Below are positions 4,031-17,207 of a stretch of DNA of 20,590 nucleotides, piece after piece. The DNA is from Oscillospiraceae bacterium (GTDB lineage: Bacteria; Bacillota_A; Clostridia; Oscillospirales; JAAYXM01). The stretch covers positions 1 to 20,590 of the forward strand of contig JAFXJK010000013.1 of NCBI GenBank assembly GCA_017532355.1. Reading direction: 5' to 3'. The notes under the pieces were generated by a model. It saw nothing but the letters and a program-made list of their open reading frames with translations, ran no database searches and was not told the DNA's origin. The position numbers and the translations under genes were made by a program. How positions within the stretch are numbered: the stretch's first letter is position 1; every line of letters begins with the position of its first letter.

Positions 4031-4834
4031 ATGAATTCCTTAATCTATCAGGAGATTACTCAGAGAGGAACAAGCGATTTCCCGATTGAGTACTACTCCG
4101 TAACAGAGAAGCATCCTCGCTACTATATGCAGATGCACTGGCACAAAGATATCGAGCTCATACGGGTCACGAAAGGTCGGCTTGAATGCGTGATCGGCGA
4201 TAGAGCGTTCACTCTCCACCCGGGGGACGGTATGTATATTCCGAGCGACATCACCCACAGCGCAGTGCCCTATGACTGTGAGTACGAATGTGCCGTTTTT
4301 TCCCCGTCCATACTTTATGCGACACAGAGAATCCGCGCGGTTGTGAAATCGCAGATTCTCTCCCCCGTGAAATTCTCAAGAAACAATGAGCTTGACGGCA
4401 TTTTCGATAGGTTGATTGCGACGGAAATCGGATATGAATTTGAAGTTGCAAGCTCACTCTACAGACTCGCACGTCTCGCCCTTTCAGAGCAGTCGCGAAT
4501 CACCACTCCTGCAAACGGAAAGGCAGAAAGAATAAAACCTGCACTGTATTATATAATGAAGAATTTCAACGAAAAGATTTTGCTTGAAGCCCTTGCAAAA
4601 GAGTGCGGCATGAGTCCGAATTACTTCTGCAAGCTTTTCCGCGATGTAACCGGCGAGACCCCCGTTGAATATATAACAACCTATCGTCTTGAGATGGCAT
4701 CGGAGATGCTTCTCGCAGGTGCAAAGGTGACAGACGTAGCCCTCGACTGCGGCTTTAACGATTTGAGCTATTTCATACATATTTTCAAGAAAAGCTACGG
4801 TATCTCTCCGAAACAATACGCAAAAATGCAGTAA
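4031..4834 (+). CDS. AraC-family transcriptional regulator with cupin sensor domain
   Basis: This is a 267-residue sugar-responsive regulator type. The N-terminal AraC-type cupin spans about residues 15-95 and includes MHWHKDIELIRVTKG, HPGDGMYIP and the ITHSA strand. The C-terminal AraC DNA-binding domain has two helix-turn-helix motifs at about 168-265 (ILLEALAKECGMSPNYFCKLFRDVTGETP, then VTDVALDCGFNDLSYFIHIFKKSYGISP). The ATG at 4031 follows AAAGGGA at good spacing and lies about 35 nt below a near-consensus promoter. Its divergent position against fucI suggests that it controls fucI in response to fucose or a related sugar. The ligand cannot be read from sequence. Confidence 0.93.
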   Translation: MNSLIYQEITQRGTSDFPIEYYSVTEKHPRYYMQMHWHKDIELIRVTKGRLECVIGDRAFTLHPGDGMYIPSDITHSAVPYDCEYECAVFSPSILYATQRIRAVVKSQILSPVKFSRNNELDGIFDRLIATEIGYEFEVASSLYRLARLALSEQSRITTPANGKAERIKPALYYIMKNFNEKILLEALAKECGMSPNYFCKLFRDVTGETPVEYITTYRLEMASEMLLAGAKVTDVALDCGFNDLSYFIHIFKKSYGISPKQYAKMQ

Positions 4835-4876: not shown

Positions 4877-4909
4877 ATCCACCTATGACCAAATTAACCA
4901 TAGGTGGAT
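4877..4909 (-). terminator. Terminator of the toxin/immunity-like pair
   Basis: This is a perfect 11-bp stem (ATCCACCTATG / CATAGGTGGAT) with an 11-nt loop, followed on the minus strand by TTTTTG. It lies 24 nt beyond the stop codon at 4934. It may also slow plus-strand reading from the AraC gene, although there it lacks a proper T-tract. Confidence 0.7.
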
Positions 4910-4933: not shown

Positions 4934-5338
4934 TTAATTCAATTCGGCAATATCTATTTCCGGCAGAAGTCTGTCATGTTTTCGATATGTGCCTCCATAC
5001 TCTCCAATGAAAACTACCTCGAAACGATTTCTTCCGCGTGCCAGATGAAAAGTATCACTTTCGCTTTCCGGATCATATGCGAAAACTGAGGAATTCTTTA
5101 AAAGTTTTCCTTCGTCTTTCGGGAAAGTGCCCAGAAGACGGATGTCGCAATCTCGTGGACTTTCTATTACCATTACACATTCTATATATGCTTTATCGCC
5201 TTTAACATAGAAATCACTAAAGTAGCTGTTTTCTTCTATTATGAACATCCTACTATATTGGAGATATGCTAAACAGCCCATCGCCAGTATAGCTAAAAGT
5301 AATACAACTATTATGATTTTCATAATTTTAACCTGCAT
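4934..5338 (-). CDS. Small membrane-anchored protein, putative immunity partner
   Basis: The protein has 134 residues. A short basic start is followed by one strongly hydrophobic segment at about 7-26, then a soluble, beta-rich domain predicted to face outward. Features of the domain are YFSDFYVKGDKAYIECVMVI, VVFIGEYGGTYRK and the C-terminal RLLPEIDI. An upstream ATG at 5413 extends into the previous gene. The ATG at 5338 sits 6 nt after a perfect AGGAGG, whereas the ATG at 5344 abuts that site, so 5338 was chosen. The AGGAGG overlaps the TAG of the gene before, giving a 10-nt gap and probable coupled translation. A Cys at 22 looks lipobox-like, but hydrophobic residues continue past it, so a membrane anchor is more likely than a lipoprotein. 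An immunity role is inferred from gene order and topology, not from a recognised domain. Confidence 0.55.
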   Translation of the reverse strand: MQVKIMKIIIVVLLLAILAMGCLAYLQYSRMFIIEENSYFSDFYVKGDKAYIECVMVIESPRDCDIRLLGTFPKDEGKLLKNSSVFAYDPESESDTFHLARGRNRFEVVFIGEYGGTYRKHDRLLPEIDIAELN

Positions 5339-5348
5339 TTTCATCCTC

Positions 5349-6503
5349 CTATTTGAGCCAACCGGAATTCCAATTAAACAGTCCCGGATTAGCTCTGATT
5401 TTAGTTTTGTCATGCCAAGAAATTCTGATTATGTAGTCTTTGGGATTTGCAAATGGAATAGATTTTGCAAATTCAACTTTTTCAGCATCTGTGTCATAGT
5501 AATATTCAGGATCAATTATATCATTCCATGTATATGTTAAATCATATGTAATGTCTCCTTTTTCGTCCTTGTAAACCGTTCCCTTGATTTGAAAACCGCC
5601 AACATCAGCATTAGTACCATGCAAATATTGATAACCTATAATGCTTTCTCCGGTGTCAATTTTCATAGGCATTGTAATATCTACCTCTTTACTTTCATTT
5701 AAACCAAGGTCATCCGCGAGAGGAAGCACAATGTTCTTCACTTGCAAAGTCAATGCCTCATTGGATTTCATATAGTCGCCCCAAACACCATCTTCTTGGA
5801 TATAATCCTTACCTCCGCCAAATAACCAATGTGATAATATAGAAATACCTTGTTCATCGTTTTTATATGACCAAAAATCTTTATTTGACCTTCCTGATAA
5901 TGGTTTATTCGAATACTGCACCATAACAGGTTCTTTATTAGGGTCTCCAATGGCGTGTTCAAATTCGTTTTTGGCATTCGGCTTTCGATTGACAGCGTGC
6001 GTCATCGAGGGAGTGGAATTGACTTCTTGTATCGGTGGATTCAATTTACTCTCCAATTGCGCGCCACGGGAAGCAATTTGCAGTTCATTTAATGAACGGT
6101 TGGCTTCGTTGGGGAAAAATGGATTTAATATGCCGGGTGTTTTTTCTTTAAACAAATCGGATGCCCATTTGTTTTCTTCGTTTGATGTTCCGTTAAACCC
6201 ATCGAGAAACGGGTCTTTCTGCAAAGACCAATTTCGCTTATCCGCGTTTGCGCGGATATTCGCAAATCTCTCTTTCCGCTCCTGCTCTTTCTTTTCTCCG
6301 TACGGGTCATTGAAGCCTTCTAAGAAGTCATCCTTTTTCTGATTTGCCCGATTGTTTGAGGCTCCAAGAAGAGCATCTCTTTTTTCTTTGACATCTGCTC
6401 TTTCAATTTGCTTTCCTGTTCCGAAGTCGTAATAATAATTATTGCTTTTGTTAGTTTTCAGAATGTCATCTGAAAATAAGTTTTTGTTTTTGAAATTATA
6501 CAT
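5349..6503 (-). CDS. Putative secreted toxin with colicin M-like C-terminal domain (tentative)
   Basis: The protein has 384 residues. Residues 1-200 are polar, Asn/Lys/Glu-rich and probably disordered, without a Sec signal, membrane segment, LXG or RHS features. A short motif of the form DxFLxGFN appears twice, at about 58-65 and 97-104. Residues 220-370 look folded. By eye, against remembered colicin M, ILSHWLFGGGKD matches ALAHYLWGNGAE, GTVYKDEKGDITY matches GTLTISANGSWTY, and NDIIDPEYYYD falls where colicin M has its active-site DDKYDFNASTHR. Asp328 and Asp331 would match colicin M Asp226 and Asp229. The essential Tyr228, His235 and Arg236 are not conserved, so activity on lipid II is unproven and homology is weak. 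The ATG at 6503 follows AAAGGA. The gene is much richer in AT than its neighbours (32 percent GC at 5401-5460 by hand count). A coupled, membrane-anchored partner lies downstream. Confidence 0.45.
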   Translation of the reverse strand: MYNFKNKNLFSDDILKTNKSNNYYYDFGTGKQIERADVKEKRDALLGASNNRANQKKDDFLEGFNDPYGEKKEQERKERFANIRANADKRNWSLQKDPFLDGFNGTSNEENKWASDLFKEKTPGILNPFFPNEANRSLNELQIASRGAQLESKLNPPIQEVNSTPSMTHAVNRKPNAKNEFEHAIGDPNKEPVMVQYSNKPLSGRSNKDFWSYKNDEQGISILSHWLFGGGKDYIQEDGVWGDYMKSNEALTLQVKNIVLPLADDLGLNESKEVDITMPMKIDTGESIIGYQYLHGTNADVGGFQIKGTVYKDEKGDITYDLTYTWNDIIDPEYYYDTDAEKVEFAKSIPFANPKDYIIRISWHDKTKIRANPGLFNWNSGWLK

Positions 6504-6521: not shown

Positions 6522-6550
6522 ATTATACTTTATTTGTATTCTTTTTGCAA
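6522..6550 (-). promoter_or_regulatory. Proximal promoter candidate for the toxin-like gene
   Basis: On the minus strand TTGCAA (6545-6550) and a perfect TATAAT (6522-6527) are separated by 17 nt. The -10 is only 18 nt from the ATG, so a transcript would begin inside or just after the AAAGGA site. It may therefore be weak or give a nearly leaderless mRNA. Confidence 0.4.
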
Positions 6551-6745: not shown

Positions 6746-7984
6746 TTACCAGGATTTTAAGTATTCTTCCTGCTCTTTTGAGAGCGAATCTATTTTTATT
6801 CCGCAAGCTTTAAGCTTCTCTCTTGCAACGAGCGAGTCTATCTCCTCGGGGACTTTGTAAAGACCTGCTTCAAGCTTTTCGGGAAGACGCGCGATATGCT
6901 CCATCATAAGCGCCTGAACGGCGAAGCTCATATCCATAATTTCTGCAGGATGACCGTTGCCTGCGGCGAGGTTTACAAGGCGACCTTCACCGAGAAGGTT
7001 TAAGATTCTGCCGTCGGCCATTACGTAGCCTTCGATATTCGGCTTTCTTTCCTCAACGGAAACCGCAAGCGCCTTTAAGTCGTTCTTATTTATCTCACAA
7101 TCAAAATGGCCTGCGTTTGTGAGAAGAACGCCGTCCTTCATCTTTTCCATGTGACGGCGGAGAATTATGTCGCGGCAACCTGTGGTAGTAACGAAAATAT
7201 CGCCGACTTCCGCCGCCTCGTCCATACTCATTACGGAGTATCCTTCAGCATACGCTTCAAGCGCGCGGAACGGGTCTGCCTCGCAGATGATTACGTTTGC
7301 ACCGAGACCCTTTGCACGAAGCGCAACGCCGCGTCCGCAGAAGCCATAACCTGCAACGACCACACGTTTTCCTGCAATGAAGCAGTTTGTCGTATTCATA
7401 ATCGCATCCCAGACGGACTGACCCGTACCGTGACGGTTGTCGAAAAGGTGCTTGCACTTTGCATCGTTGACGGCAAACATCGGGAAGTTGAGCTCTCCGG
7501 CTTTTGCGCGTGCCGCGAGGCGCGCAACGCCTGTTGTTGTTTCTTCACAGCCACCGAGAAGGTTTTCTCCCAGCTCCGGATGTGCTCCGTGAAGAATTGC
7601 AACGAGGTCACCGCCATCGTCTATCATTATGTCAGGCTTGCACTTAAGCGTTTCCGTGAGGTGTGCGGTATATTCCTCTTCATTTACGCCTCGAATCGCA
7701 AAGGTTTCAATGCCAAGCGTTACGAGTGCAGCCGCAATATCGTCCTGCGTGGAAAGAGGATTGCAGCCCGTCGCATAAACCTTTGCACCGCCTGCGGCAA
7801 GGGTGAGTGCAAGGTACGCGGTCTTCGCTTCAAGATGAATGGACATTGCAATCGTTTTTCCTGCAAAAGGCTTCTCTTTATTAAAGCGCTCGCCGATAGC
7901 GGAAAGCACCGGCATATATGACTTTACCCAGTTTATTTTTTTAAGTCCCGAGGGCGCGAGATTCATATCTTTTACAATACTCAA
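6746..7984 (-). CDS. ahcY: Adenosylhomocysteinase (S-adenosylhomocysteine hydrolase)
   Basis: This NAD-dependent cytosolic enzyme splits S-adenosylhomocysteine into homocysteine and adenosine, recycling the by-product of methyl transfer. It has 412 residues, the shorter form found in archaea, Thermotoga and many Clostridia, without the insertion of the longer bacterial/eukaryotic form. Visible motifs are DDGGD at 122-126, GGCEETTTGV near 144-153, and NDAKCKHLFDNRHGTGQS at 173-190, which carries the catalytic Lys178/Asp182 equivalents. The NAD-binding GYGFCGRG is at 212-219, and AGNGHPAEIMD lies near 341-351. The start is TTG at 7984, 10 nt after AGGAG; the next in-frame ATG (7966) is too far from that site. 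It is monocistronic between its own promoter and terminator. Its leader is only about 15 nt, too short for an S-adenosylhomocysteine riboswitch. Confidence 0.95.
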   Translation of the reverse strand: MSIVKDMNLAPSGLKKINWVKSYMPVLSAIGERFNKEKPFAGKTIAMSIHLEAKTAYLALTLAAGGAKVYATGCNPLSTQDDIAAALVTLGIETFAIRGVNEEEYTAHLTETLKCKPDIMIDDGGDLVAILHGAHPELGENLLGGCEETTTGVARLAARAKAGELNFPMFAVNDAKCKHLFDNRHGTGQSVWDAIMNTTNCFIAGKRVVVAGYGFCGRGVALRAKGLGANVIICEADPFRALEAYAEGYSVMSMDEAAEVGDIFVTTTGCRDIILRRHMEKMKDGVLLTNAGHFDCEINKNDLKALAVSVEERKPNIEGYVMADGRILNLLGEGRLVNLAAGNGHPAEIMDMSFAVQALMMEHIARLPEKLEAGLYKVPEEIDSLVAREKLKACGIKIDSLSKEQEEYLKSW

Positions 7985-15574: not shown

Positions 15575-16216
15575 ATGTTTAAAAATATGAAGGCTGACCT
15601 TCGCGCCGCGCGCGAGCGTGACCCTGCCGCAAGAAGCAACCTTGAGGTTTTTCTTCTCTACTCAGGCTTCCACGCTATCTGCCGCCACCGCATCGCTCAC
15701 TTTTATTACAGACACGGTCTCCTCTTCCTTGCGCGTATGGTTTCGCAGTACAACAAATTCCTGACAGGCGTTGAAATTCATCCTGCAGCAAAAATAGGCC
15801 CCGGCTTCTTTATCGACCACGGTACGGGTATCGTCATCGGCGAAACTACCGAAATCGGTGCAAATTGCACGATTTATCAGGGTGCGACGCTCGGCGGTAC
15901 GGGTAAGGATGTCGGCAAGCGTCATCCGACACTCGGAAACAACGTTATGGTCGGCGCAGGTGCAAAGGTTCTCGGCCCGTTTACCGTCGGCGACAACTCA
16001 AAAATCGCCGCAAATGCCGTGGTTCTTGATACCGTTCCTCCTGATTCCACGGCCGTCGGTGTTCCTGCCCGTGTTGCGCGTCAGGGCGGCGTAAAACCGA
16101 AGAACGCAGAGCTTGACCAGATTCACATTCCAGACCCGATTGCGCAGGAGCTCTGTGCAATGCGAGTTGAAATAGCACGCCTTAAGAAGGAGCTTGAAGA
16201 TATTAAAAATGACTAA
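15575..16216 (+). CDS. cysE: Serine O-acetyltransferase
   Basis: This enzyme transfers acetyl from acetyl-CoA to L-serine, making O-acetylserine for cysteine synthesis. It has 213 residues, the short Gram-positive form whose N-terminal helical region is reduced compared with about 270 in E. coli CysE. The left-handed beta-helix of hexapeptide repeats runs from about 65 to 168. The active-site equivalents of E. coli His158 and His193 are His82 (FIDHGTGIVIGE) and His117 (GKRHPTLG). EIHPAA replaces the E. coli DIHPAA, a common change in this group. TLGGTGK and GVPAR are also present. The C-terminus ends in a charged helix near 190-213 that may be regulatory, but cysteine feedback cannot be judged. 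An AGGGGG-type ribosome site precedes the ATG. No cysK is adjacent. Confidence 0.94.
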   Translation: MFKNMKADLRAARERDPAARSNLEVFLLYSGFHAICRHRIAHFYYRHGLLFLARMVSQYNKFLTGVEIHPAAKIGPGFFIDHGTGIVIGETTEIGANCTIYQGATLGGTGKDVGKRHPTLGNNVMVGAGAKVLGPFTVGDNSKIAANAVVLDTVPPDSTAVGVPARVARQGGVKPKNAELDQIHIPDPIAQELCAMRVEIARLKKELEDIKND

Positions 16217-17207
16217 ACTTTACACAGAAGCTCCCGAAATAAGTGAGAGCGTAAGACGCGAATATCTCGACGGCATCCTCGCGCTTTGCGAGCGTGGCTT
16301 TGGTGACCTTCCTTTTCTTGATGCCCCGTCTCCCCTTTTGCAAGCTCTCGGTGCACCTCTTGACCGCGAAATTTCTCTTCCCTGCCCTGTATCGCAGGAA
16401 TATGTCTGACGTGATGAGACGTGCGAGATTTACCGTCTCCGCTTCTCTCCTCTTCCGAAAACTCCGTTTTTTGCGCTTCTCTTTATACCGCACGGTATAA
16501 AGGCTCCGTCTCCGCTCGTTGTTGCCGCGCACGGTCTTCTCGGCACACCCGAGCTCATGTACGGTATCCACGGCAAGAACGGATATTCAGATCTTATAGC
16601 GCGACTTCTCAGAAAGGGTGTCTGCGTTCTCTCTCCGCAATTTCTCCTCTGGAACTGTGGACGAAGCCCTGCAAAGCCGTGCTACGCGACAAAGTATGAC
16701 AGAATAAAAATCGACCGTGCTCTCAAAGAGCTCGGCGGCAGTATGACCTCGCTTGAGGTTTTCTTTCTCATCCGCGCGTTTTCCTCTCTTTCCAATCTCC
16801 GCTTCCTTGATATGTCGCGCATTGGCGTTTGCGGAATGTCGTACGGCGCGTTTCTGACGCTTCGCACGATGGCAGTCTGCGATAAGGTTTCTGCAGGCTA
16901 CTTTATGTCCTGCTTCAACGGAAGCCTTGACACGCGCTGGCCCGAATGGGCGTTTCGTGAGCCTTACAAAACATATTCCGACTCCGAACTCTGCGAACTT
17001 TGCGCTCCTCGTCCGGTTTTTGTCGAGGTCGGAGCCCGTGACGATATCTTCCCCGTCGCTGATGCAAAGCTTGAGGCAAGCAAGGCTCAAAAGCATTACA
17101 TATCACACGGTTTTGGAAGCAATTTCCGCTTCTCGGTATGGGACGGCGGTCATATAGTCAACCCATCAGATGACGGCATCGACTTTTTACTCAGTTTTTT
17201 ACAATAA
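16209..17207 (+). pseudogene. Alpha/beta hydrolase (dienelactone hydrolase-like) interrupted by in-frame UGA
   Basis: One reading frame runs from the ATG at 16209 to TAA at 17207 (332 codons) with a single UGA at 16407-16409 (codon 67). The two halves read as one protein: residues 68 on give RDETCEIYRLRF, then the oxyanion-region AAHGLLGTPELMYG near 106-119. The nucleophile is Ser211 in GMSYG, the acid is Asp278 or 279 in VGARDD, and His315 lies in WDGGH. Every catalytic element therefore lies after the stop. No ATG, GTG or TTG lies between the UGA and 16557 in this frame, and a start there would lose the first strands and the HG motif. The stop is followed by C, the leakiest UGA context, and by a 6-bp hairpin. 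The gene overlaps cysE by 8 nt. It may be a recent nonsense mutation, a readthrough gene or a sequence error. Confidence 0.75.
16416..16439 (+). other. Hairpin just downstream of the in-frame UGA
   Basis: GAGACG (16416-16421) pairs perfectly with CGTCTC (16434-16439) around a 12-nt loop, starting 6 nt after the UGA. It could assist readthrough. The loop lacks the GG/GU pattern of known bacterial SECIS elements, and a 6-bp hairpin may arise by chance. Confidence 0.3.

Follow-up and report, generated by a model that had tools for sequence, protein, structure and literature searches.

A putative toxin-immunity gene pair with a predicted colicin M-type fold and a membrane-anchored partner

The question raised by two coupled genes, P0001 (gene 1) and P0002 (gene 2), on the minus strand of contig JAFXJK010000013.1, whose 20,590-nt stretch analysed here is called the window, is whether they encode a toxin of the colicin M type and its immunity protein; colicin M is an enzyme that degrades a cell-wall precursor in Escherichia coli. 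Judged from relatives, the window bacterium is likely a Clostridia-like Firmicute. Important antibiotics act on lipid II, and to our knowledge few protein toxins directed against it have been characterized. The pair itself, a conserved domain at the C-terminus of P0001, its match to the colicin M fold, the variable carriers of its relatives and the recurrent anchored partner were computed directly; from these, we infer toxicity, substrate, chemistry and protection by the partner. It is considered probable that P0001 is an antibacterial toxin of colicin M fold, which would attack lipid-linked wall precursors outside the membrane, and that P0002 is its anchored immunity protein.

The C-terminal domain and its relation to colicin M

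A search with residues 200–384 of P0001 retrieved 99 proteins at E ≤ 0.001, P0001 included, from 288 candidates. The folded C-terminus proposed in the initial annotation, which had been made from the sequence alone, is thus a domain (about residues 203–384) shared by 98 other proteins, and its AlphaFold2 model had a predicted local distance difference test (pLDDT) score of 90.2. In Foldseek, this model matched only colicin M-type bacteriocins in the top 12 PDB places (probability 1.00). Credible structural matches were confined to bacteriocins and one type VI secretion system (T6SS) effector; no confident match to an unrelated non-toxin fold was obtained.

For profile-profile comparison, 96 of the 99 domain sequences were used, three being dropped by length. 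In an earlier run, in which 18 of 21 colicin M relatives passed the length filter, the score was 29.1, reached by none of 100 column shuffles and by one of 100 block shuffles. In a later run, which included pectocins M1 and M2 but not the poorly aligned P0125 (19 rows on the colicin M side), the score was 30.3 over 140 colinear columns and was reached by 0/200 column and 0/200 block shuffles. The aligned pairs were HWLFGGG with HYL(W/F)GNG, GTV..TY with GTL or GVL..(T/S)Y, and WNDIIDPN with YNDxYDAN. The alignment to colicin M that had been made by eye was therefore upheld both by the fold search and by a profile alignment pairing the same stretches.

The domain very probably has the colicin M-type fold, and it is probably homologous to the Colicin_M family yet clearly apart from it. 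As judged by sequence, two tested features place it outside PF14859 (Colicin_M), namely that P0001 gave no match to this model at E ≤ 10 and that the DXYDX5HR motif is not kept. Pfam searches for Colicin_M found none in 3 and then in 369 genomes, in which no control gave a match either.

Carriers and downstream partners

As the initial annotation had anticipated, the domain occurs in homologues as a variable C-terminus. RHS-type carriers accounted for 23 of the 99 proteins (precomputed Pfam PF05593 or PF25023, the latter presumably an RHS-type shell), PF13699 was listed for nine, one of them named 'eCIS core domain-containing protein', WXG100 (PF06013) for five, and PF14107 and PF00005 for one each, with no Pfam domain listed for the remaining 60. 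In relative set A1, 13 of 55 members had WXG100 matches at E ≤ 10. The domain ended within 40 residues of the C-terminus in 91/99 proteins, started after residue 60 in 87/99 and did both in 80/99, many of these proteins coming from short, possibly cut contigs. One C-terminal domain at the end of differing carriers is, at the level of sequence, the pattern of a polymorphic toxin domain, and two tested features place the family among the predicted polymorphic toxins: the varied N-terminal carriers and a candidate immunity gene directly downstream.

One scan of genome contigs gave 35 domain loci, which by record label belong to seven phyla (Bacillota, Actinomycetota, Chloroflexota, Cyanobacteriota, Bacteroidota, Balneolota and Pseudomonadota). 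Among viral contigs, 23 stretches matched a pattern and none encoded a relative. The contig of one locus (L020), a metagenome-assembled genome labelled Klebsiella pneumoniae, may be misbinned, and the tree groups it with a locus of an uncultured proteobacterium (L013). At the locus of Enterococcus moraviensis (L002), a second long carrier gene begins 614 bases after the first toxin frame (from about 7203) and closely resembles the first over the residues compared, as if whole units were repeated. The toxin domain copies of Apibacter adventoris (L035) and of L023 are broken; L035 keeps a lipoprotein-like gene downstream, as if immunity had outlived the toxin.

A gene of 124–180 amino acids (aa) followed the domain at 30 of the 35 loci, across the seven phyla, a partner being counted when its start lay between 41 bases upstream and 170 bases downstream of the end of the domain-bearing frame. 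This count includes L026 and L034, in which that frame is short or partial; the uncounted loci were L029 and L035, each with a visible lipoprotein-like frame outside the rule, L023, whose toxin frame is broken, and L032 and L033, where the match lies in no open frame. Controls were 228 other open reading frames (ORFs) of similar length from the same loci, mechanical ORFs and not curated genes. The N-terminal hydrophobicity test was passed by 29/30 partners versus 48/228 controls, and a lipobox-like motif was present in 21/30 versus 34/228; none of the 30 partners had a further hydrophobic segment. Gene order thus recurs at most of the loci, and a consistent lack of the anchored gene did not occur.

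Grouped by pattern, the partners fell into three types. Type A (6/30), here only in Bacillota, resembled P0002 with 22–40% identity; type B (22/30) carried SPSG...W.YSGDVG or a variant and was distributed over seven phyla by record label; type C (2/30), weakly like type A, came from one Lachnospiraceae strain. Profile comparison gave types A and B as unrelated (probability 0.07). On a tree of 30 rows (the window and 29 loci, L034 being omitted for length), used to see whether partners of different type are freely exchanged, the partner-type label needs 5 changes, the least possible being 2; the deep forks are weak and compatible with a single origin of type A. No partner protein scanned had a Pfam or NCBIfam match above cut-off. 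P0002 itself has 21 homologues, and its model (pLDDT 91.8), a helix at residues 2–28 followed by a beta-sandwich, fits the earlier description of a single-anchor protein with an outward-facing domain. Among the matches listed, those of the model were generic, e.g. glycoside hydrolase domains. At one locus of Saccharofermentans (L015, 6516–7448), a short toxin frame is followed by two tandem type A-like anchored genes, as in stacked immunity arrays.

Active site, proposed mechanism and rival explanations

In colicin M, an Ala change at D226, Y228, D229, H235 or R236 leaves less than 2% activity, and in syringacin M the D226 equivalent binds metal; the mechanism of colicin M is called unknown by reviewers (PMC8469651). 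In the 96 aligned domain sequences, the D226 equivalent (D328) was kept in all and the D229 equivalent (D331) in 90, whereas Y was found in none at the Y228 position (330), which has I, M, L or V instead, H in only one, P0006, at the variable H235 position (337), and R in none at the R236 position (338), which has T or S in 94. The loss of Tyr228, His235 and Arg236, noticed at first in the window copy, is therefore a property of the family, in which DXYDX5HR is reduced to its two Asp and two of five essential positions are kept. The N-D-x-x-D-x-N loop frame, with the metal-site Asp, is also kept. The family has a near-invariant set of its own, consisting of H295 and Y244 (96/96), Y336 and D339 (95/96), and K342, N284 and E286 (94/96), and some of these residues may build a replacement active site.

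In the mechanism proposed, the C-terminal 180 residues of P0001 would form the colicin M-type domain, which would probably act at the outer face of the competitor's cytoplasmic membrane and most likely cleave lipid II or another undecaprenyl-pyrophosphate-linked wall precursor. Action outside the cytoplasm is suggested by a partner that is anchored and outward-facing, and the fold together with the kept metal-site Asp points to the pyrophosphate of lipid II, or of a related lipid-linked precursor, as the site cleaved. A divalent metal would be held by D328, perhaps also by D331, and H295, Y336, D339 and K342 are candidates for doing the work of Y228, H235 and R236. The N-terminus of P0002 would anchor it in the membrane of the producer, with the beta-sandwich outside, and P0002 would block the toxin there. 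Relatives would be delivered on their carriers; the 384-aa form has no signal, transmembrane segment or recognised carrier domain. In vitro, colicin M also accepts lipid II of Gram-positive chemotypes as a substrate for hydrolysis (PMC8469651). That the genes constitute a toxin-immunity pair is very probable; by analogy, the family may work like colicin M, and lipid II or a close lipid-linked precursor would on balance be its substrate.

Several results weigh against this reading. Three of the five residues indispensable to colicin M are absent or nearly so, and the TM-scores of the structural matches are middling (0.38–0.50 of the query, with root-mean-square deviations of 5–10 Å). One of 100 block shuffles passed the real score in the run with 18 relatives, and the HH-suite probability was just 28–36% (36% in the 19-row run), probably owing to the shallow colicin M set (Neff 2.7); a first run, with an option that the program did not recognise, gave a probability of 1.4% and a score of 12.9. 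PDB sequences searched with P0001 or its profile gave no match, the profile search at E ≤ 10 reaching no colicin M chain, and PF14859 was not among the 25 of 50 families listed for the 55 A1 members. No Pfam, NCBIfam or PADLOC model fits P0001 or P0002, two Pfam rows for P0001 lying under the cut-offs, and no toxicity, binding or enzyme results were found for any family member. The window copy, furthermore, deviates at two near-invariant sites, with T284 (N in 94/96) and E333 (N in 93/96), and because of these departures it may be drifting.

The alternative that survives best keeps the fold and the toxin-immunity logic and assigns another outer-face target, such as the head group of a phospholipid or a precursor of teichoic acid or polysaccharide, or has the domain bind a lipid without cleaving it. 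The loss of Y, H and R, with a different residue set invariant, would fit a change of chemistry; colicin M degrades both lipid I and lipid II (PMC8469651), so the fold can accept related lipids, and members occur at Mycobacteriaceae and Nocardia loci besides Clostridia, whose envelopes differ. The kept metal-site Asp and N-D-x-x-D-x-N frame speak for the original substrate, however, and known colicin M-type proteins also vary in the motif, the activity of such variants being doubted or untested in the source (PMC5821083). Another target is thus regarded as unlikely, although not negligibly so.

A second alternative concerns the window copy, which may once have been a toxin module and, having lost its carrier, may now be decaying or be retained only for the immunity gene. 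The absence of a carrier domain or signal in the 384-aa protein and the two altered near-invariant residues would fit such a relict. As had been stated at the outset, P0001 lacks a Sec signal, hydropathy giving no signal or transmembrane segment (top 19-residue mean 0.98 versus 3.02 for the gene 2 product), and a Pfam search gave no WXG100 or LXG match at its N-terminus, although relatives carry WXG100. K, E, D, N, Q, S, P and G make up 60% of residues 1–200, versus 52% of the remainder. Both frames are intact, however, and this front recurs: residues 1–110 in P0003 (93/110 aligned positions identical) and P0005 (43/96), and residues 111–200 in P0006 (41/90) and P0010 (27/90). The shared front and the intact frames argue that the 384-aa version is a maintained form, and decay of the window copy is accordingly rated as quite improbable.

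The distribution of the front was followed further. Ten genomes with related loci contained no match to it. P0001 matched five of 295 genomes from a single order, three of these matches being domain loci already known. In one of the five genomes (G514), residues 4–71 matched at 53% in a 103-aa frame that lies at a contig end and has a different tail; together with the recurrences above, this suggests that the front may be an independent module. The match in another (G456; residues 19–153, E 6.7e-4) looks unrelated. Among nine genomes of the family of G514, the front was found in G514 alone. A repeat, D-x-F-L-(D/E)-G-F-N, lies in the front at residues 58–65 and 97–104 (6192–6332, minus strand) and also in the G514 gene (L039). 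As a loading motif it was dropped, since its DNA pattern occurred in 3/295 genomes, one being the G514 gene, with one control match, i.e. near chance.

A secreted or surface protein with a chaperone or anchor subunit and no antibacterial role, e.g. a polymer-binding RHS tip with a lipoprotein, would suit the lack of a member with tested activity here and the generic, glycoside hydrolase-like beta-sandwich of P0002, but is very improbable. A compact domain that ends several unrelated carriers and is followed at 30/35 loci by a small gene, drawn from two or more unrelated families, is the hallmark of toxin-immunity modules, and credible structural matches were to bacteriocins and one T6SS effector only.

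With the pair read as a colicin M-fold toxin and its immunity protein, the fold would not be confined to Gram-negative bacteriocins and would be used by a family for which no Pfam or NCBIfam model was found. That three of five catalytic positions have been lost in nature would help to probe how colicin M works, and two unrelated partner families would represent two ways to block the fold. A wider proposal is put forward tentatively, with the chances slightly against it: a second and far wider branch of colicin M enzymes, its active site rebuilt, may serve as a general weapon against lipid-linked wall precursors. At least seven phyla, Gram-positives among them, would load it onto carriers of the RHS, type VII and contractile-injection kinds, and protection would come from anchored immunity proteins at the outer face that belong to two or more unrelated families. 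Colicin M would in that case represent a single local offshoot, and Gram-negatives would not have invented the use of this fold against lipid II.

The known systems differ from the pair to varied degrees. The Colicin M family (PF14859: colicin M, pectocins M1 and M2, syringacin M and PaeM) shares the fold, the order of elements, the HYL(W/F)GxG and NDxxDxN stretches and the metal-site Asp; unlike it, the window family has no PF14859 match among those listed (25 of 50 families for A1), has the motif reduced to two Asp, includes RHS, WXG100 and eCIS-core proteins among its carriers, has loci in seven phyla, and has partners that, as far as scanned, lack a Pfam or NCBIfam match above cut-off. The immunity protein of colicin M, Cmi, is likewise a small partner with an N-terminal anchor and an outer domain, but apparently of a different fold from P0002 (PMC8469651); Cmi-type immunity has the YebF fold, and the P0002 model is an all-beta sandwich after the anchor. 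Cmi was not among the best 50 structural matches of P0002, a listing that proves nothing on their relation. Elsewhere, colicin M-type toxins also use different immunity partners (PMC5821083).

Divergent toxins of this fold are already in print. Among T6SS effectors, DUF3289/DUF943 pairs a colicin M homologue with its immunity protein; it resembles the proposed pair in fold (by structure search), cognate immunity and periplasmic action, and differs in having been tested in E. coli (PMC11148199). DUF3289 (PF11692) gave no match for P0001, was not among the 25 families listed for A1, and its locus was found in 0/274 genomes. Another divergent polymorphic toxin with the colicin M fold has a Cystatin-like carrier and a membrane-anchored, BamE-like immunity protein; by its description in the text it differs from the pair in carrier and immunity fold, although it may overlap with the present family (PMC12419801). 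TelC/TipC of Streptococcus intermedius is alike as a Gram-positive, calcium-dependent toxin acting on lipid II outside the membrane with cognate immunity (PMC5555719, PMC6193138), but TelC belongs to the Lipocone superfamily and not to the colicin M fold (PMC12419801); its authors held that toxins against lipid II arose separately in Gram-negatives, as colicin M, and in Gram-positives, as TelC (PMC5555719). The C-terminal domain of BtpeA, a T6SS effector of Bacteroides fragilis (PDB 9jdi), was matched by Foldseek at E 0.15, and no paper on BtpeA was found. Among the titles, abstracts and passages covered, none was found to describe this domain or the partner families.

Layout of the locus

Both genes were present as two coupled minus-strand genes, as first described (Table 1). 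The ATG of gene 2 at 5338 follows the gene 1 stop after a gap of 10 bases, and its stop ends at 4934. An alternative start at 5413, within gene 1, is in the ORF list; homologues of gene 2 are mostly 131–134 aa, and their alignment begins at the 5338 start. Promoter-like sites in this stretch were not above chance (5 found versus 6.6 expected), whereas terminator-like sites were (5 versus 1.3).

Table 1. Positions of the two genes, their regulatory-like sites and the domain and active-site segments in the window
Feature	Positions	Strand	Remarks
Toxin gene P0001 (gene 1)	5349..6503	(-)	384 aa; residues 1-200 polar; hydropathy shows neither a signal peptide nor a transmembrane segment
C-terminal toxin domain, residues 203-384, predicted colicin M fold	5352..5897	(-)	Homologue search, model, fold match, profile alignment
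Residues 290-298, GYQYLHGTN	5610..5636	(-)	H295 invariant (96/96); candidate relocated active-site residue
Residues 326-334, WNDIIDPEY	5502..5528	(-)	D328 corresponds to colicin M D226, D331 to D229; I330 at Y228 position
Residues 336-342, YDTDAEK	5478..5498	(-)	Y336, D339, K342 near-invariant; 337/338 at H235/R236 positions
AGGAGG ribosome-binding-like site	5345..5350	(-)	Overlaps toxin stop codon (coupling); read in sequence
Putative immunity gene P0002 (gene 2)	4934..5338	(-)	134 aa; anchor helix 2-28, then beta-sandwich domain
Promoter-like site TTGCAA-17-TATAAT, upstream of toxin gene	6522..6550	(-)	10/12 consensus match
Terminator-like hairpin, 15 pairs, 3' of gene pair	4877..4909	(-)	Terminator scan

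The pair is flanked by an adenosylhomocysteinase-like gene (6746–7984) and a gene for an AraC-type regulator (4031–4834, plus strand), both named from their translations and not from a search. Farther away, at 16194–17207 on the plus strand, an esterase-like product is apparently split over two frames (16194–16409 and 16557–17207), as if broken, according to the translations only.
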